Positions 828-22,448 of a stretch of DNA of 26,591 nt are shown piece by piece; position 1 is the stretch's first letter, and each line of letters begins with the position of its first letter. This stretch comes from Spongospora subterranea (lineage: Eukaryota; Endomyxa; Phytomyxea; Plasmodiophorida; Plasmodiophoridae). Under the pieces are notes generated by a model. That model saw nothing but the letters and a program-made list of their open reading frames with translations, ran no database searches and was not told the origin of the DNA. The DNA lies in NCBI GenBank assembly GCA_900404475.1, contig OUQQ01000186.1, positions 1-26,591 on the forward strand, read 5' to 3'. Position numbers and translations under genes: made by a program.

Positions 828-2658
828 ATGGCGGAGATCGTAGAAAAAACTGCTTCTGAATTGGGGTTATCCTACGCAACGGAGGAATTTTCAAATGTTA
901 TGGACACGCACGATCCTCTTAGGATTTATAGGTCTGAATTTGCATTTCCATCAGCGGCAACGGAGCAACCGTACATTTACTTATGTGGTATATCTCTAAG
1001 AAAAGGAGCATGGAATACTATTTATCTGCTTGCTCAGGAAACTCACTTGGGCTTATGCCGTTTTCGGCAAAATCGAAAGTCAACCAATCTTTGGACAAAT
1101 GGTTTGTTCACGAGCTAAGTGAGTATCACTAGATTAGAAAATAATTCCTGCAATAGGGCAACTTCAGGGGTTAATGGACATTTTGAGGGCCCAGATAAAT
1201 GGGTAGATGCTGAAGGAATCGCTTGTCGGCTCATGACTGAAATTGTCGGTGCAAATGAAAGTGAAATCGCCATCATGAACGGGTAAGCAAATCTCTCTTA
1301 ATACCCTGGTGTCTGACAGCTGAACTGCTTCAGATTGTCAGTTAATTTGCATCTCATGTTGACCTCTTTTTTCCGCCCAACAAAGGACCGTTTCAAGATC
1401 CTAGTTGAAGATGGCTTATTTTGTTCTGATTCTCACGTCATACTATCACAACTACGATTGCACGGGCTATGTCCAGAAGAAGCCCTTCTGAAAGCCAAAC
1501 CGGAATCCGGACGTGATTTTTTGGCAACCGAGGATATTATTCAACAAATTGAAGCTGCGGGCGATAGTCTCTGTCTGGTTTTCTTTAGCGGTGTCCAGTA
1601 TTATACAGGCCAAGTAAGTTATATGATCTCCCAGACACATACTGAGCGTTAATCTAAATGTGATCCAGTTCTTCGATATGGCAGCGATCACCGCGGCAGG
1701 GCATAAAGTTGGCGCTCGCGTTGGTTTCGATCTGGCTCATGCCGTTGGCAATGTTGTAAGTGGCGGTGTATGTTTCTAATTTTGGTTGAGTGGTTGAACA
1801 TGTATTTAGGAGCTTCACCTACACGATTGGAATGTGGACTTTGCTGTATGATGATATCAACCCCTACTGATTATGGATGACCAATGTGATCATAGTGCTG
1901 GTGTTCGTATAAATACCTAAACGCAGGGCCAGGAGGCATTGCTGGAGCATTTGTCCATGAGATGCACGACTCGAGCTCTTTTCAGAGATTGGACGGTTGG
2001 CAAGGTCAAGCACTGGAAGACGTGTTCTTGATGCGTCCTGTACATAATCCAGCAAAAGGAGCGGCTGCCTATCGAATATCGTAACACCGAATTTGAAACA
2101 TTCTGTCGATACTAATTTCCACCTGTGTTCAGAAACCCGTGCATTTTGTCGATATCATCTCTGATCGGCGCATTGGAAGTAAGTGTGGCTAAACATCTCA
2201 TTTTTTGTTTGGGAGATTCACCTTTCTTGGATTCAGATTTTTCAAAAGGCTACAATGTCTCGAATAACGGCGAAGCAGGTATAAATGCCTTCAATTTAGC
2301 CTAATTGGTGCTAATGACTGCCCAGATCTTGTTGACAGGATATCTGGAGCTGCTTCTGAAACAGACTCTGTTACCTGAAGATATGTTGCAGATAACGCCG
2401 GCTAATCCACGCGACCGTGGATCGCAACTGTCCATCAAGTTTACTAAACCTGTATGACTGATGATGTTTCGGAAACGGAAAGAACAGTGACAAGTTTTTC
2501 AGATACGAGATGTTCAAGGCTATCTGCAAAAGAACGGCGTCATTTGTGATGTTCGCAAACCAGGAGTTCTCCGAATAACCCCGGCTCCTCTCTATAACTC
2601 GTTCAACGACGTATATAAGTTCGTCATGCTACTAAGAGATGCCGTCGACAGTGTCTGA
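828..2658 (+). CDS. KYNU: Kynureninase (11 exons)
   Basis: PLP-dependent hydrolase of tryptophan catabolism that cleaves kynurenine or 3-hydroxykynurenine to anthranilate or 3-hydroxyanthranilate plus alanine. Ten introns inferred: 988-1037, 1123-1156, 1283-1333, 1614-1668, 1756-1809, 1846-1895, 2081-2132, 2179-2236, 2279-2325 and 2452-2502. The spliced product is 442 aa, close to the roughly 465 aa of the human enzyme. Family landmarks appear in order: [57 protein letters not shown], the PLP-lysine motif [19 protein letters not shown], and the C-terminal [16 protein letters not shown]. All key motifs are present, so the enzyme should be active. The ATG at 828 fits the short N-terminus of the family. 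An AATAAA lies at 2712-2717, 54 nt after the stop. It suggests an aerobic eukaryote able to degrade tryptophan and possibly make NAD de novo. Confidence 0.95.
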
Positions 2659-2988
2659 AAGATAGTTTCGCCTTGGCTCATCCAGATCCTCGGAAATATG
2701 CCAGCAACAATAATAAAACACGCATTGCCAAGTCAGATTACTCAAATTGTTTTCATATTGTTGTGTCGCCCATCTGGCTCAGTTAGCAGCATCGACGCTA
2801 AGTCCGGAACAGGGGGCCGGCCGACCCGGTTCGGACTCGGTTGCTTTGGGTGGGGTACAGTTGCAGCCGATTACAGGCAAGTGATCATCAACCGACGGGG
2901 AGATCGTCGACCTGGAGTGGAGTTACGGTAACAGTTGACGACGCCCCATCACTGACACATTGCCATCCCTTTCTCGCCCCAATCCGAC
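2659..2988. other. Intergenic region, kynureninase 3' end to SAP18 5' end
   Basis: Contains the AATAAA at 2712-2717 that probably ends the kynureninase transcript, then a GC-rich stretch near 2810-2850 that could be part of the SAP18 promoter. Open frames here, such as 2698-2931, show no recognisable protein. An in-frame stop at 2953-2955 separates them from the SAP18 start. Confidence 0.5.
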
Positions 2989-3594
2989 ATGTCATTCATC
3001 CATCCGGATCGCCAATCCCGACATGCCAACCCGTCATCGCGGAATCCAGCGCGGCATGCATCACCCCCACGACGTCAAAATGCCCAGCCAAATCGACGAC
3101 AGGACGATCGGCCGAATCGTCGCCAGAGTGATCCTCCCTCGCGTCCAATCGATGTCAAACCGCGTGCGACGCCTCCTGCTATCGTTGATAGGGAGAAGGT
3201 TCATAATGTGTTTATTAATCTGTCTGGCCGCTTATTGTTTCGCCAGGTTTGTCCCTTATTGCTGAGGGTTTTCATAAAAGAAAATGGTGCTTTCACAGCA
3301 GACGATTTTACATTCGACATAAGTCAGTTGACGCCAGGAGAAATGCAGATATACACTTGGCGGGACGCCACACTCCTCGAACTCGTGGAAGCAATTCGGA
3401 GTGCGACACCATCGGCGCGGCGTAATTCAGCGAAAATTGAGGTGTCACTTGCCTTTCCTAGTAGCCGCGATGGAATGACCGTTCGCCGTATTGGGTCATT
3501 GCACACCGGACGGGCTGGCTCTGAAGATCACCTCTCCCTCGCAGAGTCTCGCTTCGAAACCGGTGATTTCCTGGCAGTCTCTATTTTCACGTAA
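2989..3594 (+). CDS. SAP18: SAP18, Sin3/ASAP complex ubiquitin-fold subunit (2 exons)
   Basis: SAP18 is a small ubiquitin-fold protein of the Sin3 histone-deacetylase complex and the exon-junction-associated ASAP/PSAP complexes in the nucleus. One intron inferred at 3199-3246 gives 185 aa. The C-terminal 120 residues match the family: DREK joined to VCPLLLRVF, the acidic loop, QIYTWRDATLLELVEAIR, a basic stretch, RRIGSLHTGR and FETGDFLAVSIF. The first 65 or so residues form an arginine-, proline- and asparagine-rich extension absent from human SAP18 (153 aa). ATG 2989 is the first after an in-frame stop. The 48-nt intron is a multiple of three and contains no stop, so retention would insert 16 residues just before the first strand. 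The donor, GTTCAT, is weak. Confidence 0.93.
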   Translation: MSFIHPDRQSRHANPSSRNPARHASPPRRQNAQPNRRQDDRPNRRQSDPPSRPIDVKPRATPPAIVDREKVHNVFINLSGRLLFRQVCPLLLRVFIKENGAFTADDFTFDISQLTPGEMQIYTWRDATLLELVEAIRSATPSARRNSAKIEVSLAFPSSRDGMTVRRIGSLHTGRAGSEDHLSLAESRFETGDFLAVSIFT

Positions 3595-4372
3595 CTTCCT
3601 TCCTTATCATAATAATTGTCACCATAATGACTATAATACATTTGAGTTTAATCCAGCGATTTTGTGAGGTCTTTTACCGTCCAAAGGATTGCATGATTTG
3701 CGCTCATGCCGAAGCCTCAAACTTTTTGTAATTTAATTGCTGTAATGTACTTTTTCAAGTGGCTATTCCGCCAATTCGAAATTATAGGTCCACTTTAGTC
3801 GATGTTTTCGACAAACTCTTTTGGATTTTGATTACTACTTACTACATCACGTGATTCATCCATTTAAAAACGAATGTACGGAGCCTTATGAACAACAACC
3901 ATCGCAGAACGCTACAACTTAGACAAGTTGGAGTATGGATGCGCGAACAACCTAGGCAAGTTGGAGGATGGATGCGATTCGCGAGAAGAATTTGAAGTCG
4001 TTCACCAATAATGACTTGTCATCGGCACGAATCAATATTTACTGGGCACGAATCAAAATTTACAATATATTCCATTTAAGTCTATATGTATGGAAGCACT
4101 GTACGAATAGGAAAAGATCACGCGGGCAGAGAATACACAATTACTAGCAAGTGTAAATCAATTGACATCCATAAATATCAAACACAGAGGACATGTAGTT
4201 TCTATTTCAGTACAGATGATTAGGATTTGGGTTGGACAATAGGCAAACAATGAGCACTCGCTTATAAATGTTGAGACCGTTGGAATGTTCCCAGCTGCGA
4301 CTCTACATGCACCCGTTGCCCTTTGATGTTATTCGAACAGCGCATAGGTTATATATATGAATCGATCAACAT
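3595..4372. repeat. AT-rich intergenic region with short direct repeats
   Basis: No gene recognised. Two small direct repeats are visible. AGRCAAGTTGGAGKATGGATGCG occurs at about 3921 and again about 33 nt later. GCACGAATCAAWATTTAC occurs at about 4025 and about 4047. These look like local slippage duplications. The region separates SAP18 from the minus-strand block beginning at 4373. Confidence 0.5.
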
Positions 4373-4986
4373 TTAAACGAATAGGATGACACCAACCAGG
4401 AATACAGGAACATACACTCCTTTCTCGAACGATGTGATATTACAGGACGACGAGTAGAATCCACGTCCAATGGGCTTGGCAAGCCAAGCATGATCGTCAG
4501 TGGCGATATCGGCGACAATCGCGTTGCCAACCCTTTTGGCAGTGAAACTTAAAGGCTCAGGAATCACCACCGCAAACAACCAATCGAAGGAACTGGCGGA
4601 ATCAACCCACCGACAAGGTACACGCCAAAATTATGGAACCCAATAATCCCAATTAGAATATGTATCGCTTGATAATTCGCTTTGTCTGATGCCAAGGCCG
4701 CTCAACCTTTCAGATGAACGCGACAGACACAGTTTTTGACACAGTTTTCTGGATTGGAACACTTAAACACGTTGATCTCGATACCATACTCCGTCATCGT
4801 CAACTTAGCAAAGACTACAACATGAGGCGGACGAAGTGTACGATAACCACATTTGAATGAACTAACATATCTGCTATGTTCTTCTAGCAAAAACACGATT
4901 CGAAGCCTGTCTTGCATGGTCTTACAGCGAGTTTGATCATCATCCCTTATTGATGATGCGCATTCATTTATTACGATAATGGACAC
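4373..4986 (-). CDS. Unidentified minus-strand coding segments, Cys-rich then hydrophobic C-terminus
   Basis: I do not recognise this gene. An open segment read from 4986 to 4702 is cysteine-rich near its end (KCSNPENCVKNCVC). A second segment in another frame, ending at 4373-4375, finishes in a hydrophobic tail (GVYVPVFLVGVILFV) resembling a GPI-anchor signal or terminal membrane segment. Between them, in the frame of the first segment but after a TGA, lies another hydrophobic stretch (IHILIGIIGFHNFGVYLVGG). No canonical GT-AG intron I tried joins them cleanly. The first ATG in the upstream segment is at 4917, and a possible AATAAA for the neighbouring transporter overlaps it (4967-4972). 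It may be a small secreted or membrane protein, or a decayed gene. Confidence 0.35.
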
Positions 4987-5026: not shown

Positions 5027-6761
5027 TCAAAAAATTAAGGGAGATAACTTTTCCTCTATTGACAGGCTTGATTCCCTTGAATGAACTGTCAAATCCTCAT
5101 AATCGGACTCTAGAGTGCGCTGATAGGGTAATGGATCACAACCGTCGGAAGGGAGGTTTTGGTTGGCCGTTTCCCTTGGTAGCGTAAGGGCTGCAATAGC
5201 AGCAAAGAAGCCAAACATTGAAAATACACCTGTAGCAAGAGTGATCGATCCGTCTTCTGAAACGAAACTTGTAAAAACCCCAGCAATTCTTGCAAAGCAG
5301 GATGCTAATCCGAATCCGCTGCTACGAAGTGAAGTGGGATAACTCTCAGCCGTTGTCACATACAGCGAGATAAATGCAGCAGAAACGCTGCCACGAACAA
5401 TAAACGTGCAAATCACACTTACTGCTTCGGAGAATCCCCAGCTGAGTAGCCCACAAAACACCGACGTGATCATGTAAAGGACTCCAAGTGTTCGCTTTCG
5501 CCCAAACCTGTCAATGAAAAACAATGGAACAAGAAATCCTGGAAATTCGGCAACGCTTGAAATCAGTATGTCTCTATACTTGTTCTTGGTGGAAAAAAAC
5601 CGCGGCGATGCAAGAATGATCCCATAATAGACTAAGCTGGAACTAAACCACAAAAGCCACAATCTCATTGTGGTTGCAGAGAAGTGAACAACCAGGGATT
5701 TGACGTTTTCTCGTACACTGTCGGCGACTTTTGCGCCGTTGTCAGAAATTTCCCAGTTTTCCAAGTGTAGAGTTCCGTTGTTGGTTCGGGATACTGAATT
5801 CAGAAGAGAATGTGCTTCTTTCAGTCGATATTTCATGATCAGAAATCTGGGAGATTCAGGAGAATCGAATGCCATAAACGCTATGATAAACACTGGCAGC
5901 GACGATAAAATGAGCAGGATCCTCCAGCCATAGCGCGGCAGAACATACCAAGCTATAAGAACTTGAAATATGGCGCCGCCACTGCAAAGGCTTCATCAAG
6001 TGATCTTCATTTATCAATGCCTGTATTACCTCCAGAATAACTGATTTACTAGTAGAATCTTCCCCCTATTTCTTGCAGGAAGAAACTCTAAACCGCCTGA
6101 TATGAGAATAACTCTTCGAGCGACTAACAATGCATCTTACCTGTAAATAAGGTAAACGCGACATGCCCACCTCCCAGTCCTACTCCTACGAAGAACCTCA
6201 AAATACAAAGCCAATATGCTGTTGGAGAAAACGCACTTAATAGGCCTAAAATGTTTCTTTTAATCTATGCAAATCCAGGGAAACAAACCCAGTACCAAAT
6301 ACAGCGATTAGAATCGTACTGGAGAAAAACCCTACCCACCGGCCAAGCGAGTCGCTGACTACTCCGCTTGCAAGATTACCCAACAAAACACCCACAAACA
6401 TTGCAGCACCAATAAAACCTTTTTCATTGTCAGATACCGCAAATCTGAAGTGCAGAATGATGAAGCAATCTACAGTACCATTATCGATTTCCATGTCTTG
6501 TCGAATTTCATCCACCAAAAACGACAGAAGTAATGCCTCCATTGCATCTCCAGCTGAGGCAAGACCGGTCAAAACCATTAACCGTCGCTAAGGGATGGAA
6601 ATTGGAAACTTCGACACAAAGCTCACTGCGCTAACCTGATATTTTCCGAAGGTCGCCTTTTCCAGGGCTTCGCTCAGCGAGACGGAAATTTTCGTTCGCT
6701 GCGAGGAGAGAACGGGGACATTGACAGGATGATTGAACGAGGGACTTCCCACAGAGCCCAT
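5027..6761 (-). CDS. SVOP/SV2-like major facilitator transporter (5 exons)
   Basis: Twelve-helix MFS carrier related to synaptic vesicle 2-related protein (SVOP) and plant or protist homologues; its substrate cannot be inferred. Exons, minus strand: 6761-6636, 6587-6296, 6245-6141, 6096-6030, 5981-5027, giving 514 aa. Recognisable features are LTGLASAGDAMEALLLSFL (TM1), the TM2-3 loop VVSDSLGR, VFGLLSAFSP, FFVGVGLGGG, GGLEFLPARNRGK, PESPRFL at the end of TM6, the TM8-9 loop IDRFGRKRT, and TTAESYPTSLRSSGFG. ATG 6761 follows an in-frame TAG. Residues around 6450-6500 form an insertion relative to human SVOP; I looked for an in-frame intron there and found none. The gene is divergent from DCTN2. 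Confidence 0.9.
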
Positions 6762-7364: not shown

Positions 7365-8480
7365 ATGCAGCCAAACACCGATCAGGATACCGATCAGCAG
7401 AGTCTCGATCACAAATGGGTGGTGCATTCAACGCAGGAGGTTTTTCATGACTACCCTTCCTACGTAGAGAGATTGCGGACACTCCGCCAGCAATCTAATG
7501 ATGTTGAAATTACCGCTCAAGGAACGCTCGCTCCCGCATACACTCTGCCTCAACGAAAGCACGAACCTGTATGAGACATTGATAGGCCTTTTTGTTTATT
7601 CCTGACACGTTGTCGATTCTTAGGAATCCAGTGACCACGTTATCGAGACGACAGTGACTCCGGAAGATGCTCTACGAGTTTTTTCTGGGTATGAAATCGG
7701 GTTTGAGGGAAACAATCCTTTCAGGAAGATTCAAGAGTTGAAAAAAGAAGTGGATTTGGTGATGCGATACGTTCAAGAAACTGATCAGACGTTAATGCCA
7801 GATATTCAACAACTTCGAATTGACCTTTCAATCTGCACCAATATCTCTGGTTAGAACTTGAAATCAATCAAGTTTGCTGTGTGTTTTAACGCAATGCCAA
7901 TGCAGATTGCAATCGGAACTTGGTCAACAACGAACGTCAATTCAATGCTGTCGACGATGACGCCAAGTTTTCCAGTGATGTACATGAACGCCTTTCTCGC
8001 ATTGAGGAAAATCTCGCTGGTATTGACGGTGTTGAAGATAACTTCGAAAGCATTATCGACATTCTGGAAAGCAGGTTGTCATTGCTGACAGAAGACAGGC
8101 TAGACCATATTTCGCAGCGCTGCCAACGGGCGTTGAATCAAATGGACGCTGTGTCCAGAAGAATATCGGACGAGGGCAACCGGACTGATGATCGTGCACA
8201 GGAGTTGGCGTTAACGCTCGATCGATTGGAAGACATGTCGTCGTCGCTACCCCACGTCATTGATCGATTGCTAACCCTCAAGACAATGCACGAGCGCGGC
8301 GCTGACCTGAGGCGAGAAGTGACGCAGATGGAACACATCGGTAGCGCCATCGACGTTCGATTGCGAGAGAGCGAGATAGCGCTGGACATAATCCGGAAAA
8401 ATCTACAAGATAATTTACAGATCATGACGGACAACTGCTCGTTCCTCACTTCTCGCATTGAAAAGCTCGAATCTTCCTGA
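7365..8480 (+). CDS. DCTN2: Dynactin subunit 2, dynamitin/p50 (3 exons)
   Basis: p50 dynamitin forms the shoulder of dynactin, the cofactor that links cytoplasmic dynein to cargo. Introns inferred at 7569-7623 and 7850-7905 give about 334 aa (human 401). The N-terminal signature YTLPQRKHEP, then ESSDHVIET across the first junction, parallels YADLPGIARNEP.VYET of animals. GYEIGFEGN.PF.KIQELKKEVDLV matches the next block. The C-terminal 100 residues (LPHVIDRLLTLKTMHERG, then RKNLQDNLQIM and SRIEKLESS) match the conserved coiled coil. The start is the weak point: ATGs at 7275 and 7365 are both in frame, and I chose 7365 because known homologues have short N-termini. No other intron is needed. 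Confidence 0.85.
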
Positions 8481-8613: not shown

Positions 8614-9561
8614 TTACATACTGCCCATGTTCGGCGTGCACCGAATCCTAACCGACAACGTCTTGATGATATTGAAACAAGGATCCCCGAACATCTGATT
8701 GTTGGCCGCGAGAGTGCACGATTTCTTATTGAGGCACGCCTGCGACACAACTTGCAGCGATTTCGCGCTGTTGCAATTGTATTTCGGGTCGACCTTGTAC
8801 GTATCCTTGCCCACCTCCGTCTGTTTTCCATACCCGGCCCATTCAACCTGCGTGAATATCCCGTTTTTGCACGAGATCTCTCGTTGATGGTATTCGTCGA
8901 CGACGAAACCCATCGAGAACCCGCCAGCTTTGGTCGGCGGCGTCGACGACTGATTCAGTCGCGGTCTACTGTTCCCACATTGCAATCGAACGGAAAGCGT
9001 CTTGTACACGTTCTTGCACGGATCGCCAAACAGCTTGTTGGTCGCCTCCAGCTCGCACGACGACTTGCCGACGCACGCTCTGGACACCACGTCGACCGCC
9101 TTCGCGCTGGAACAGTTGAACGCCGGATCCGTTTGCGGTGCCGCTCCGGTTTGGATCTGACGGCCATAGAGCGCGATGGCGACACTTTCGAATGTTCCAC
9201 TGGGGCAAGTTACCACCCGTTTATCGTTTTCGAACACTATGGCGTCAACCATGGCTTGCTTGGGTTGTTTCTTTGAAGGATATTTGGATGTTGAATTTAG
9301 TGTTGGAGACGGAGGCGATGGTGTCTTTGTTTTTGGATACGGAGGCGATGGTGTCTTTGTTTTTGGAGATGGCGAAATGGGTGGATTTGTTGGTGAATAT
9401 GTTGCTGGTGACGGGGAGGAAGGTGGGCGGCGGGCCGAGGCGGGGGCCGGTTGAGTGCCGGGCACATGACCGCCCGATTGAGGGCATTGTTGGTCCCGAG
9501 CCCGAGCCACGCCCACGAGCAGCAGGCAGCATATAATGGCGGCGGAACGCGGCTGGAACAT
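8614..9561 (-). CDS. Secreted protein with two SUEL-type (rhamnose-binding) lectin domains
   Basis: Single-exon gene, 315 aa from the ATG at 9561. This start gives a signal peptide (MFQPRSAAIICCLLLVGVARA); an in-frame ATG at 9669 would place 36 residues before it. A proline-, serine- and threonine-rich linker follows (residues about 30-100), containing a ten-residue duplication PKTKTPSPP. Then come two Gal_Lectin/SUEL domains at about 108-195 and 222-308. Each has the family's spaced cysteines, a YGR/YGK motif and the GDPCxNxxKTLSV block. Such domains bind rhamnose or galactose. No transmembrane segment is seen, so it is probably secreted or cell-wall associated and could act in adhesion or prey recognition. 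It converges with DCTN2. Confidence 0.88.
   Translation of the reverse strand: MFQPRSAAIICCLLLVGVARARDQQCPQSGGHVPGTQPAPASARRPPSSPSPATYSPTNPPISPSPKTKTPSPPYPKTKTPSPPSPTLNSTSKYPSKKQPKQAMVDAIVFENDKRVVTCPSGTFESVAIALYGRQIQTGAAPQTDPAFNCSSAKAVDVVSRACVGKSSCELEATNKLFGDPCKNVYKTLSVRLQCGNSRPRLNQSSTPPTKAGGFSMGFVVDEYHQREISCKNGIFTQVEWAGYGKQTEVGKDTYKVDPKYNCNSAKSLQVVSQACLNKKSCTLAANNQMFGDPCFNIIKTLSVRIRCTPNMGSM
9311..9370. repeat. 30-bp tandem duplication inside the lectin linker
   Basis: Positions 9311-9340 and 9341-9370 are nearly identical and encode, on the minus strand, the duplicated Pro-Lys-Thr-Ser-rich unit of the lectin linker. The period is a multiple of three, so the frame is kept. Confidence 0.9.
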
Positions 9562-9796
9562 GGCGGATTTTGGATGATGATGACCACACACACACACGAA
9601 GATCGGGAAAACAATCCTCAACGTGCTCGAGAATTGGGGGAATTTGATGTGAGGCTTTCGCCGGATCATCTTTTGGAAAGTAAAGGCGATCGTGGTGACT
9701 CATCGGATCCGTCTTCCGGGACATAAATCAAGATCTCCGTTTTAGGGTTTTCCCCGATCGCTGACCCTGATACGGTTTATTGATTGATGTGTGTGC

Positions 9797-15636: not shown

Positions 15637-16435
15637 TCAGTTAGAGTCACCTTCGACGACGGATTCCGGTTTACGCAGCTGGGATGTGATTGCGTCGAAC
15701 GCTGCTTCGCTGACCTTTTTGGCGACGTGTTGGCTAACTGGTTTCACGACTTCTCGCTGCATCTGATCCCCAAACGTCTTGGCCGCCTGCAGACCAATTG
15801 ACTGACGAAAACCTGGACCTGTTCAACGCACCAACCTTGATCGTCGAATCAATACTTCCCTGATGGGTTTGCACAAACGGGGCGACAAAGTGTTTAAAAA
15901 CCACTTGAGCACCGTTTGTCTGGGGAGCGAACAACCAAATCAAGCAACAGCATTTGACGAACTGATAAAATGGGACCCAGAATAGAAATAGATCTCCGAA
16001 CGCTTCTAAAACCTGGAAAAGCCTAAGGACGGAATGATCAGATATAATTTGAGTTAAAAAAAATGTGTCAAAATACCCGAAAACAATCCAGTATGTTAAC
16101 CAGTACGAATCGTCAGCTGTTCCTTTCGATTTGACGGCATTGAACGATTTCAATGTGGGATAGAAAAATCCAATGCAATTAGTAACTGCTTTACCACCAA
16201 AACCCTGTTTATAGACATTCGTCAGTTTACAATTTGACAAAAAAACGTGGTGACTCTTTACGGTCAGAATAAATGAAAAACAGAAAAACGCAGCGATTAA
16301 CACGGCGTGCGTCTGCTTCAAGCCGGTTTTCTGCGTGAAAAGACGAAGGATCTGAATCTCGCGCTTGATTAAATTCGACTCCATGTGGTCGATCCAGTTC
16401 ATGGCGTCCGATTTGAACTTATCCACCTGCTCCAT
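15637..16435 (-). CDS. REEP5/Yop1-type ER-membrane-shaping protein (4 exons)
   Basis: TB2/DP1/HVA22 family protein that forms hairpins in the ER membrane and stabilises tubules. Exons, minus strand: 16435-16262, 16204-16077, 16022-15836, 15801-15637, giving 217 aa, near the family's usual 180-210. Landmarks are KTGLKQTHAVLIAAFF (TM hairpin 1), CIGFFYPTLKSFNAV, DDSYWLTYWIVFG, then LFQVLEAFGDLFLFWVPFY and CLIWLFAPQTNGA. The C-terminal amphipathic region (FDAITSQL) follows the last intron, which is only 34 nt. The ATG at 16435 gives the family's short N-terminus. AATAAA overlaps the stop region (TGAATAAA), so the 3' UTR is extremely short. Confidence 0.93.
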
Positions 16436-17004
16436 TGTCGTTTGGGATCGACCTGACGCCAATTGAACGACAGCCCCAGACTATTACTATATGATCTTGA
16501 CCAATAACGAATAGGAGTAGAAGGTTCGAGAATTGTGCGCGAGTGCAATGGTCCCCGTCCCCATTAATGTGCGGTCTCAAGATACACACTCACCTGTGTG
16601 TACACGAATGCCAGTCGACGCAGCCCCCTTTGGTTGTACTGACGAACTGCTGAATTTCGCCCATGTTGAATTATTATTCGCCTGTGGAATTTGACCTGAC
16701 GACGGTTTGACCTTTCTACTGCTGAATTTTGACCGTTGTGCCTGAGTTCCTCATCCTGATGAGCGTCCAGAATAACGAGGAACCGCGGGTTATTGCCGTT
16801 TGCGACTTGATTTTTTCGGTAAATCATTGTTTTATGGAAATTGATCGAGGATGGGACCTGACGAAACCCAGTTGTTCAACCAGTATGGTTTATCAGAATA
16901 AACCAATCGGGATCCTGAAACGGATTTTGTGTGTGAGCAGTGAATTGACAATTTCGCCCGGCAACTTGATATCGAATCCCTCATTTTAGTGTGGCGTGGG
17001 AATT

Positions 17005-19116: not shown

Positions 19117-22100
19117 ATGAGCAATGTTCCACTGTTAGCGTCATCGATGCTATTGATAATATGGTAAGTCGTGCCCATGTTCCCTGTCGTGCTTCGCCAC
19201 GATAGTTCAGTTTGGCAAATTGCATTGTAGTGTCTCGACATATTCATTTCCGCTGCAAGCGACGATCATCGTCCAAACGTCAGTTGCTGTACATCTCTGT
19301 ATGAACAGGAAATTTGAAACGATGGATTGTGCAGAGACAGTTTTGGTAAGGCGACCGAAACGAACCCGACCGGCAGCGATTGCACTGATGTCAACAAGCA
19401 GAATAACGAATGTGAGTCAGCAGTTTGCTAGAACACCAGTTAAGTGTCTTATACAGCAAACCTGTTTTCGTATGTAGGCTTGGGAGGAATCAGCAGAAAA
19501 GCGACGCTGTTCCAACAGGTTCTGAACGAGACCGAAGGCGACGCGGTTTTCTTGGACATGGGCAACACCATGGCGATCGGCGAGCTATACCGATTTTATC
19601 GCGGCGATGTCGAGGCGTTCATGTTCCGGCGCTACAATTTCAGCGCCATCGTCCCGAAAAATCTGGACTGGACCTTGTCTGTTGACGAACCCGATCGATT
19701 GCAGATCAAATCCGGGGTCCCTGTCGTATCCGCCAATATTTTGCGACGATCGTCGAATCGTCGAGCGTATCATCCGTACGTTCTAGTGCGACTTCCCAAC
19801 GGCCTCGTCATCGGAATCATCGGGTCGAATTCCGAGACGGAGCTGACCGCCGGGCACGTGTTCTCGGACGACTTCATCATCGGGAACCCCATCGGGTACG
19901 TTAGCGAGGCGGTTGGGGAAGTGAAAGTCCTGGGCGCCAACGCCGTCATCGTCTTGGACAACTCTGGGAAACTCGACCCGGATGTTCAGGCGGAGTTCAT
20001 CAAGTCCCATCCGTTCGTCGACGTTCATATCGTCAACCACATCGATTCATTCTACGGAAATGCCAGCATTTTTACGTGCGGCGAACAATGCACCTATGGA
20101 AGGTCGATTCTCAGGATCGATCTGGCGTTCGCCGCCAATCTTTCCGTGGTAGGTGCCAGGTCGGAGATCATCCCGGTTTCGCCAACCATCCCTGACGAAC
20201 CCGACGTGCAATTATATCTTCAGCAGAAACTCGAAGAATTCCACAACGCGACTGATGCCATTGTTGTCGCCGAGTCGGATTTCACCAGTTCCTTCATGGA
20301 ATACCCAACGGATTTCAAGAATTTCAGCCACTCCACTGGCGATATCGTCGCGGATGCGTTCATGAACACGGCTCGTAATTACAATATCGTGGCCGATATA
20401 GGGCTGGTCAACAAAGGATCCATCAGGGCGACGTTCCCCAAGGGCCCGATCATTCGAAACCGGGTCGGCCAGGTTAGAGCGATTTCGTTGCCCGATTTGG
20501 TTCCGCATTGCTGAAAATCGCTTTAGATTCTCCCGTTCTTCGACACGGTATGCGCATTCTCCATCAAGGGCAGCTATCTTCTCAAGGCGTTGCAAGCATC
20601 GACAAAGCTGGCCCTGTTCGGGTCATTCCCGGAGGTGTCGGGCGCCAGATTTCAGTGGAATCCCGACCTGCAGGACCGTATCGACCTGGGCGGAATCACG
20701 TCGATCTCGGTTCAGGACCCGGTCACCAAAACGTGGTCGCAGTTCTCAATCGAAAAATCGTACGTGGTCGTGACCAGCAGCTTCGTTTGCAACGGAGGCG
20801 ACGAATTCCAATTACTCAAAGAAAACGGCTTCGATTTCCACGAAAACCTCGATTCGGTGCTTGACTCAGTCATTGGCTATCTCGAACAAGAAAAGATGCT
20901 CTACGCTAGTAATTACACCACACCCAGGTACGTAATTCCTGCCTTGATTTGACATCAGTTTCATTGATGTTGGATAACTAGAGGCGAGCTGACCACCGAC
21001 CCGTCGGCAATTCGCTTGACCGGCGATTGCGAGAAAGGGAAGTACTTGGACGAGAACGGATCGTGCAAACTGTGCCCGGTGGTCAACACGGTTGTCGATT
21101 TCAAGATCGTCCAGACGCAGGATCTGTGGGCGATCAGCGCCATCGTGGTTGATGCGCTGCTGGACTCGGAACTGTCGCAGCCGATCACGATGCAGGCCGT
21201 TCTCATGAACCAAGGGCCCTATGCAGTGTCGTGGCGAGCCGATCCCGCCGACAGCGAGTTCGTGACGCTGTCGCCAGAATACGGCCTGATCTCTGGCGCC
21301 CAGTCTCTGGTCATCAACGCGACCTGGGTGATCTCTGTCGCCAAACGGGCGCCCTTCATCACGATCAATGTGATCGGACGCGACCTGTCGTCCGTATTCC
21401 TGTGCTACACGCCGTTATCGGTCCGGTTCCCGATCCGGTACAAGCCCCTGTACGTTCGCTATTTCTACCCTTGGATCCTGTTCCCGATCATCATGATCAG
21501 CTACGTGTTCGTGATGGGGTTCCTGGTCATGTCGACCTGTCTGATCTGGCGCAACAGGAGGTCGGCCATGATCAGGGCATCATCCCCAACCCTGCTGTTG
21601 ATCAACATCGCTGGCGCCATGGTCTTGTCCAGCGGCTCGATCGTGTTCTCCATTCTGCCTAACGGTGCCAACGCTAACGCCATATGCGAGCTTCGCTGGT
21701 GGTTGCCTGGTCTAGGTTTCAGCATTATGCTCAGTCCATTGCTGATGAAAATTTACCGAATTGATAAGGTCATTTTGGCAAACGCCATTTGTTTGCACTG
21801 TGGTCTGAGAGATTTTCTCGGCAGATTTTTGTTTCCGACACAATTAGGATGATTTCCATACCAAACTCACTGCTGCTGAAGGGAGTAGCCGCAATGGTCT
21901 CGGCGATGGTCGCGCTCCTAACCATCCACTCGATCATGTTCCCATCGGTCAGCGTGGTCCTGCCCGCCACTGATATCCCTACCGACGCCCCTGATGATCA
22001 CACGATCACGCTGGATCAGTGCACAACATATGATGTATATGTAGCCGTCATCCTGACCACATGTGCCCTTTTTGTTGCCTGGGGCGCCAGATTAGCTGTG

Positions 22101-22448
22101 AGTTCATTTGATGTTGAGGGCCGGCATTGGTGTTTGATATTTGGTGGGTTTCAGTGGCATGCTAGGTCGGCGCCGGCGGATTTCAACGAATCTCCTTCCA
22201 TTTCTGTCGCGCTGATGTTCATCTCTATATACGCCGTCTTGATATTGCCATTGCTGTATCTTCTCGACGCGAACCCGGCCGTTCTGGTCATACTACGCGG
22301 CCTGGGAATCAACGTTGGAGTGGGGGTCTCGATGGCCGCCCTGTACCTGGGCAAACTCGACATGATCCTCAGGGGGAACGCACACACGATTCCGAACACC
22401 AGACTGCAGCTGCATCAAATGCCAACAGTACTGACTACTGATGGGTAG
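19117..22448 (+). CDS. 5'-nucleotidase-like ectodomain fused to a class C GPCR seven-helix domain (8 exons)
   Basis: Exons inferred: 19117-19163, 19231-19345, 19402-19411 (10-nt microexon; 13 nt if the acceptor is at 19398), 19478-20472, 20527-20927, 20982-21768, 21825-22097, 22155-22448; about 973 aa. A signal peptide (MSNVPLLASSMLLII) is followed by a 5'-nucleotidase fold: ECLGGISRKATL, PVVSANIL, IGIIGSNSETE, then a C-domain with GLVNKGSIRA, LPFFDTVCAFSIKGSYL, SGARFQWN and CNGGDEF. Metal and catalytic motifs are degraded: HTNDVH reads QTSVAVH, DAGD reads DMGN, GNHEFD reads PKNLDW, and GHSH reads NHID. A short Cys segment (CEKGKYLDENGSCKLC) and an Ig-like stretch precede the 7TM_3 domain (ASSPTLLLINIAGA, CELRWWLPGLGFSIML, WHARSAPADFNES). 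Probably a plasma-membrane receptor sensing a nucleotide or nucleoside. That role is inference. Confidence 0.85.

Follow-up and report, generated by a model that had tools for sequence, protein, structure and literature searches.

A class C G protein-coupled receptor in which a catalytically inactive 5'-nucleotidase would serve as the ligand-binding ectodomain is suggested by a single locus of Spongospora subterranea, which raises the questions of whether the two halves belong to one gene, whether the ectodomain has lost hydrolysis and what such a receptor would sense. The gene was located at positions 19117-22448 (+) of the window, by which the whole analysed stretch of 26,591 nucleotides is meant (contig C256). 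That a nucleotidase-type ectodomain and a 7tm_3 domain are combined in one protein is, given the predicted splicing, almost certain; the reading as a whole, a dead-nucleotidase class C receptor sensing a nucleoside or nucleotide, is favoured with some reserve as the best explanation.

Gene model

The predicted gene model comprises eight exons encoding 973 residues and seven introns of 54-67 nt, every one of which is bounded by GT..AG (Table 1). Splice sites were picked by open frame and homology and, as a consequence, the open frame lends no independent support to the model. The start, the stop and both introns given in the initial annotation were recovered to within one base, the introns at 20927-20982 and 21768-21825 being adjusted to 20928-20981 and 21769-21824, respectively. 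The best protein match to the predicted product was P0001 from Plasmodiophora brassicae (1155 aa), aligned by BLASTP over residues 2-555 with 34% identity (E 4e-93) and spanning the exon 3/4, 4/5 and 5/6 junctions. The exon 6/7 and 7/8 junctions are spanned by the 7tm_3 profile match, which scored 94.2 bits on the spliced sequence; taken singly, the ORFs scored 47.6 (exon 6) and 28.4 bits. The leader was called from hydropathy alone. An alternative N-terminus in frame 1, carrying S-D-D-H in 19231-19300 and which would retain the DxH motif, was set aside; the frame-2 candidate was preferred because it has a leader and aligns with P0001 without a gap between QT and CT. Elsewhere in the window, an ORF at 8617-9699 (-) contains two SUEL (galactose/rhamnose-binding) lectin stretches.

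Table 1. Exons of the predicted receptor gene and neighbouring genes, in window coordinates
Feature	Position	Strand	Content	Basis
Exon 1	19117-19163	+	Start codon, hydrophobic signal-peptide-like leader	Gene model, hydropathy peak at residues 12-30
Exon 2	19231-19278	+	End of leader, first nucleotidase beta strand ATIIVQT	Gene model; aligned to P0001 VSIAYQT
Exon 3	19335-19411	+	Former DxH region, now D-S-F, plus GSDCTDVNKQNNEC	Gene model, residue table
Exon 4	19478-20472	+	Metallophosphatase-like lobe without complete di-metal site, inter-lobe helix, start of 5_nucleotid_C	
Exon 5	20527-20927	+	Remaining 5_nucleotid_C, nucleoside pocket PFFDTV, SSFVCNGGDEF	Pfam, residue table
Exon 6	20982-21768	+	Cys-rich piece DCEKGKYLDENGSCKLCP, beta-rich-looking linker, TM1-TM3	Pfam 7tm_3, P0001 homology
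Exon 7	21825-22097	+	TM4-TM5	Pfam, mGlu2 alignment
Exon 8	22155-22448	+	PADFNE loop, TM6-TM7, short tail, stop codon	Pfam, mGlu2 alignment
SAP18	2956-3591	+	Neighbour gene, ordinary eukaryotic context	
Sugar transporter	5030-5992	-	Neighbour gene, ordinary eukaryotic context	
Dynamitin	7893-8480	+	Neighbour gene, ordinary eukaryotic context	
TB2/DP1/HVA22	15737-16480	-	Neighbour gene, ordinary eukaryotic context	

Domain composition of the ectodomain and linker

A Pfam search was run on residues 33-973 of the spliced protein and identified both 5_nucleotid_C (PF02872; E 1.1e-20, 74.7 bits against a cut-off of 23.6, profile positions 22-158 of 158) and 7tm_3 (PF00003; E 1.3e-26, 94.2 bits against a cut-off of 33.5, profile positions 7-231 of 251), matches far too strong to be due to chance, so that the two domains do occur in one predicted protein, as had been proposed. 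The 5'-nucleotidase fold proposed for the ectodomain is borne out by the PF02872 match together with PDB sequence matches to CD73 and other 5'-nucleotidases. In the predicted structure the N lobe has a metallophosphatase-type fold that looks intact; the model does not extend to exon 5, which encodes over half of the C lobe, and the match of the model to CD73 is partly expected since nucleotidases were present in its input alignment. Foldseek matches, among them SoxB, NadN and CpdB/YfkN-type proteins sharing this fold, do not distinguish function. No match to Metallophos (PF00149) was obtained with the exon 4 translation at E<=10, in a search whose program filters drop most matches above about 0.1 and in which the enzyme P0003 scored 57.7 bits.

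Of the Cys-rich and Ig-like linker described in the initial annotation, the short cysteine piece (C539, C551 and C554) stands; the Ig-like part is weak, its best Pfam match being BACON_2 at E 0.065, below the cut-off. Neither ANF_receptor nor another periplasmic-binding family matched the predicted protein at E<=1, and the same holds for NCD3G. NCD3G is absent from the non-animal class C members surveyed in PMC3251606 and PMC12716839, and GPR158 is described as a class C member without a Venus flytrap ectodomain (PMC8611064).

Loss of active-site residues and retention of most nucleoside-pocket residues

Residues were tabulated in CD73 numbering for the window protein and P0001 against ten nucleotidase matches (P0002-P0011). 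The zinc/phosphate residues of CD73 are D36, H38, D85, N117, H118, H220 and H243 (PMC7939394), the first six of which are identical in all ten comparison enzymes, while the H243 column is H in seven. At these positions the window protein has D, F, N, N, L, N and H, thereby keeping three of the seven ligands: D36 (in D-S-F), N117 (in K-N-L-D) and H243 (in V-N-H-I-D). The losses are H38 to F, D85 to N, H118 to L, D121 to T, H220 to N and position 245 to D. The earlier claim that DxH, GNHE and GHSH are lost is thus accurate for the motifs and overstated for the single residues. P0001 has R, S, N, A, L, N and Y and keeps none of the seven, H243 being poorly aligned; at H38, D85, H118 and H220 neither protein retains any of the four. 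Because the Plasmodiophora protein carries the same changes at D85, H118 and H220, the catalytic loss is probably old. Judged from these residues, hydrolysis by the ectodomain has very probably been lost; residual metal binding would be conceivable, since D36, N117 and H243 remain.

The C-lobe motifs SGARF, NGGDEF and PFFDTV were all found in the translation, as annotated. The nucleotide-binding residues of CD73 are R354, N390, R395, F417, F500 and D506 (PMC7939394), among which F417 and F500 form the base clamp, N390 and D506 contact the ribose and R395 contacts the phosphate (PMC8677862, PMC7508162). Five of these six are kept in the window protein, R354 not being placeable in the alignment, and P0001 keeps N390, R395, F417 and D506, with Y replacing F500 as in one of the ten enzymes. 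Over the columns conserved in at least eight of the ten enzymes, the window protein retains 19 of 62 in the N lobe and 23 of 33 in the C lobe (Fisher p 4e-4), and P0001 22 of 62 and 24 of 33 (p 6e-4); both tests come from one alignment and treat columns as independent, which they are not truly. The decay has therefore fallen mainly on the catalytic lobe, and this in two proteins that share 34% identity. The C-lobe conservation may be partly structural, and the pocket residues are conserved in the comparison enzymes as well.

Nucleotidase controls within the genome were sought by a profile search of its 679 contigs (20.6 Mb), in which introns and eukaryotic genes are present. Outside the window, PF02872 was found on C258 and C210. 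The C258 gene (about 2563-4401) encodes a nucleotidase in which every motif is intact, with HTNDIH, AGDQF, GNHEFD, SHNG, GGHSH, NSGGIRA, LPFGD and GGD. The C210 gene (about 4190-2470, -) keeps NGD, GNHE, TH, GGH, NGGFIR and SGGD; its first motif is N-D-I-Y, that is D-x-Y in place of D-x-H, which makes it the weaker control and indicates that H38 alone can vary. Just upstream of this nucleotidase-like gene, at about 4950-4490 (-) of L009, the translation contains several copies of a repeated unit, VAYKPLGVIPSLLINIGRHSI.

P0001 comes from Plasmodiophora, which we take to be a rhizarian. It has the same disabled nucleotidase ectodomain as the window protein and the start of the Cys-rich part in common with it, but this is followed by an Ephrin_rec_like domain and a different multi-TM region, 7tm_3 having no match in P0001 at E<=1, so that the dead nucleotidase head is not tied to class C signalling. 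No kinase domain was found in P0001 by domain search, which makes 'Tyrosine-protein kinase ephrin type A/B receptor-like' a misleading database name. A full-length model of P0001 had a mean pLDDT of 53.6, with most of the membrane part below 50, and was left unused.

The 7TM domain and a second 7tm_3 locus

A search of PDB sequences with the 7TM region returned 47 distinct sequences at E<=1, all of them class C, the best matches being mGlu2 (E 7e-10) and GABA-B2 (E 2e-9), followed by other mGlus, GABA-B1, GPR158 and GPR179. In the mGlu2 alignment LLMKIYRI is paired with LLTKTYRI and PADFNE with PENFNE, and both loop cysteines (ICELR, DQCTT) are present; we take these sites to be the class C landmarks of TM3, ICL3-TM6 and the TM3-ECL2 cysteine pair. 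Hydropathy gave six clear TM peaks and a weaker TM3. With the 7tm_3 match above its curated cut-off and the landmarks aligned to mGlu2, the assignment to class C made at the outset can be retained. A homologue search with the 7TM region (7997 best-word candidates scored) gave two proteins, both with ANF_receptor and neither nucleotidase-headed. The G-alpha profile had 28 matches in the genome and exceeded the family cut-off on seven contigs, the weak matches possibly being other GTPases; the presence of G-alpha is only permissive for coupling of the receptor. Signalling of the predicted receptor through a heterotrimeric G protein is likely.

The only other 7tm_3 locus found lies on C334 at 12889-9448 (-), and the total remained at two loci at E<=10, which is a lower bound because exon-by-exon searches can miss genes. 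Its model has five exons, introns of 50-64 nt and 1072 residues, with a provisional N-terminus and a hand-picked last junction. Pfam matches were a complete animal heme peroxidase domain (An_peroxidase, 347 bits, profile positions 5-530 of 530), DOMON (57.7 bits) and 7tm_3 (56.0 bits); the 7TM domain is followed by a long C-terminal tail. The 7TM region, searched against the PDB with a query whose first four letters were wrong, matched GABA-B2 (E 2.9e-5) and also GPR156. Aligned with 8s6c (a structure deposited as lactoperoxidase) and with peroxinectin A (6erc), the C334 product retains the distal AHD, GDPRANEN and QRGRD stretches and has the V of MEFVVS opposite the histidine of YRVGHT/FRFGHS, which is the proximal heme histidine. 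Because of this substitution, the product is probably a pseudo-peroxidase receptor.

An exon-by-exon profile search found An_peroxidase on C334 only, and ANF_receptor, the sole Venus-flytrap family searched genome-wide, gave no match at E<=1. Among the ten homologues of the C334 product (7993 best-word candidates scored) none contained 7tm_3, and no paper combining peroxidase, DOMON and 7tm_3 was found among the matches listed. Used as a single query, the window 7TM recovered no genomic locus but its own at E<=1 and missed C334, so that the two 7TM domains are linked by the Pfam profile and not by direct similarity.

Proposed mechanism and alternative explanations

The gene product would be a class C receptor of the plasma membrane in which a catalytically dead ecto-5'-nucleotidase acts as the ligand-binding module. 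In class C receptors, binding of the ligand makes the paired heads close and rearrange. CD73 is a dimer (PMC7939394) whose C lobe binds the substrate in the open state; on closure the metal lobe is carried over the phosphate by a rotation that can reach 114 degrees (PMC8677862). Since a dimer with hinged lobe closure is what a class C ectodomain needs, a nucleotidase fold could replace the Venus flytrap. An extracellular nucleoside or nucleotide would bind the C lobe, the N lobe would then swing in as in CD73 without hydrolysis, the movement would be relayed through the Cys/beta linker to the 7TM domain, probably within a dimer, and a heterotrimeric G protein would be activated by the 7TM domain. 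With the nucleoside pocket largely retained, a nucleoside or nucleotide is the best guess for the ligand, and more likely than not the right one. A triphosphate seems less likely than a nucleoside, or than a nucleotide held by R395, because the metal-dependent grip on the phosphate is incomplete.

Two alternatives concern the gene itself. A soluble nucleotidase-like protein and an adjacent 7TM receptor may have been misread as one gene, the splice sites of the predicted model having been hand-picked to preserve the frame. However, homology to P0001 extends beyond the exon 5/6 junction (RG..., C..G...CKxCP) as far as CKLCP, into the same uninterrupted exon that bears TM1-TM3, and the junction is a frame-preserving 54-nt GT..AG intron; on the strength of this homology two genes are rejected as extremely improbable. 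A decaying pseudogene, which the degenerate catalytic motifs might suggest, is hardly more credible, given that 973 codons are open under the predicted model, 7tm_3 scores well over its cut-off, 23 of the 33 conserved C-lobe columns are retained and P0001, a distant relative annotated in full length, shows the same main losses.

The remaining alternatives accept a single receptor gene and concern what its head does. An ectodomain that is still active, or weakly so through a single-metal or altered site, could make the protein an enzyme-receptor whose product drives the 7TM domain: D36, N117 and H243 are kept, the N-lobe fold appears intact in the predicted model, and the C210 nucleotidase, with D-x-Y for D-x-H, suggests that H38 alone may be dispensable. 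The changes D85 to N, H118 to L, D121 to T and H220 to N, and the loss in P0001 of all seven listed ligands (with the placement of H243 uncertain), nevertheless make this very unlikely. A weightier competitor, although still on the unlikely side, is the same receptor with a ligand other than a nucleoside or nucleotide, or with a role as an adhesion or dimerisation scaffold, the pocket being a relic or accommodating a flat aromatic molecule such as a flavin, a methylxanthine or another metabolite. The CD73 clamp also takes caffeine, 5-iodouracil and riboflavin (PMC8677862), the metal site is incomplete, R354, a phosphate contact in CD73, is possibly gone, and P0001 bears the same ectodomain on a different membrane domain. 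Against this, the window protein keeps the ribose contacts N390 and D506, R395 and the clamp, and P0001 likewise keeps N390, R395, D506 and an aromatic clamp (F417, with Y at 500). The nucleoside- or nucleotide-sensing receptor is accordingly the reading carried forward.

If correct, it would show a class C receptor working with a second hinged, dimer-forming fold in place of the Venus flytrap, and an enzyme converted into a receptor through loss of catalysis with its pocket preserved; the closing, dimeric head needed by the class C 7TM domain would then be separable from the type of head used by animals. For GPCR-based sensing of nucleotides or nucleosides beyond the animal P2Y and adenosine families, the protein is also a direct candidate. 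More tentatively, this lineage may have turned secreted enzymes into receptor heads, with pseudoenzyme receptors sensing the ancestral substrates (nucleotides; peroxide-, heme- or phenol-type molecules), a possibility based on the finding that both 7tm_3 genes found in the genome have heads derived from enzymes without key catalytic ligands, that ANF_receptor was not found genome-wide and that the pseudo-nucleotidase head occurs on two membrane modules (window protein and P0001).

Comparison with known systems

The architecture, which the initial annotation implied to be unprecedented, is not new as a pairing of domains. PF02872 is contained in the Capsaspora 'Glutamate family' receptor EFW44378.1 (PMC3251606, 2012), and 5_nucleotid_C occurs in 'Glutamate Receptors' of choanoflagellates and of further close animal relatives, though not of animals themselves (PMC12716839, 2025). 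These receptors resemble the window protein in having PF02872 and PF00003 in one protein; they are reported as domain labels, in sections of the two papers where catalytic residues are not discussed, and no mention of a pseudoenzyme was found in PMC12716839. The Capsaspora and choanoflagellate proteins were not among the homologue matches (7991 and 7997 best-word candidates scored), and the window gene appears to come from a lineage other than Holozoa, its closest relative found being that of Plasmodiophora. In a literature search that covered few subscription papers or preprints, no report was found of active-site loss with a kept nucleoside pocket in such receptors, nor of a dead head that also sits on a different membrane module in a Plasmodiophora protein.

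CD73 and UshA share with the window protein the fold of the modelled part and most of the nucleoside-binding residues, whereas the window protein is without most of the metal and catalytic residues and has a class C 7TM domain instead of a GPI anchor or a free form. The likeness to mGlu2 and GABA-B2 lies in the 7TM sequence with its class C landmarks, the window protein differing from them in its nucleotidase fold and in having no ANF_receptor or NCD3G match. Fusions of 7tm3 with SBP_bac_1 or PBP_like_2 in P. brassicae have been termed a transporter class unique to the species (PMC4815078), although SBP_bac_1 and PBP_like_2 had already been reported on fungal glutamate-family receptors in 2012 (PMC3251606), and these fusions look like class C receptors. 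They are similar to the window protein in placing 7tm_3 behind an unusual ligand-binding ectodomain, but their ectodomains are bacterial-type solute-binding domains, whereas that of the window protein is an enzyme fold.
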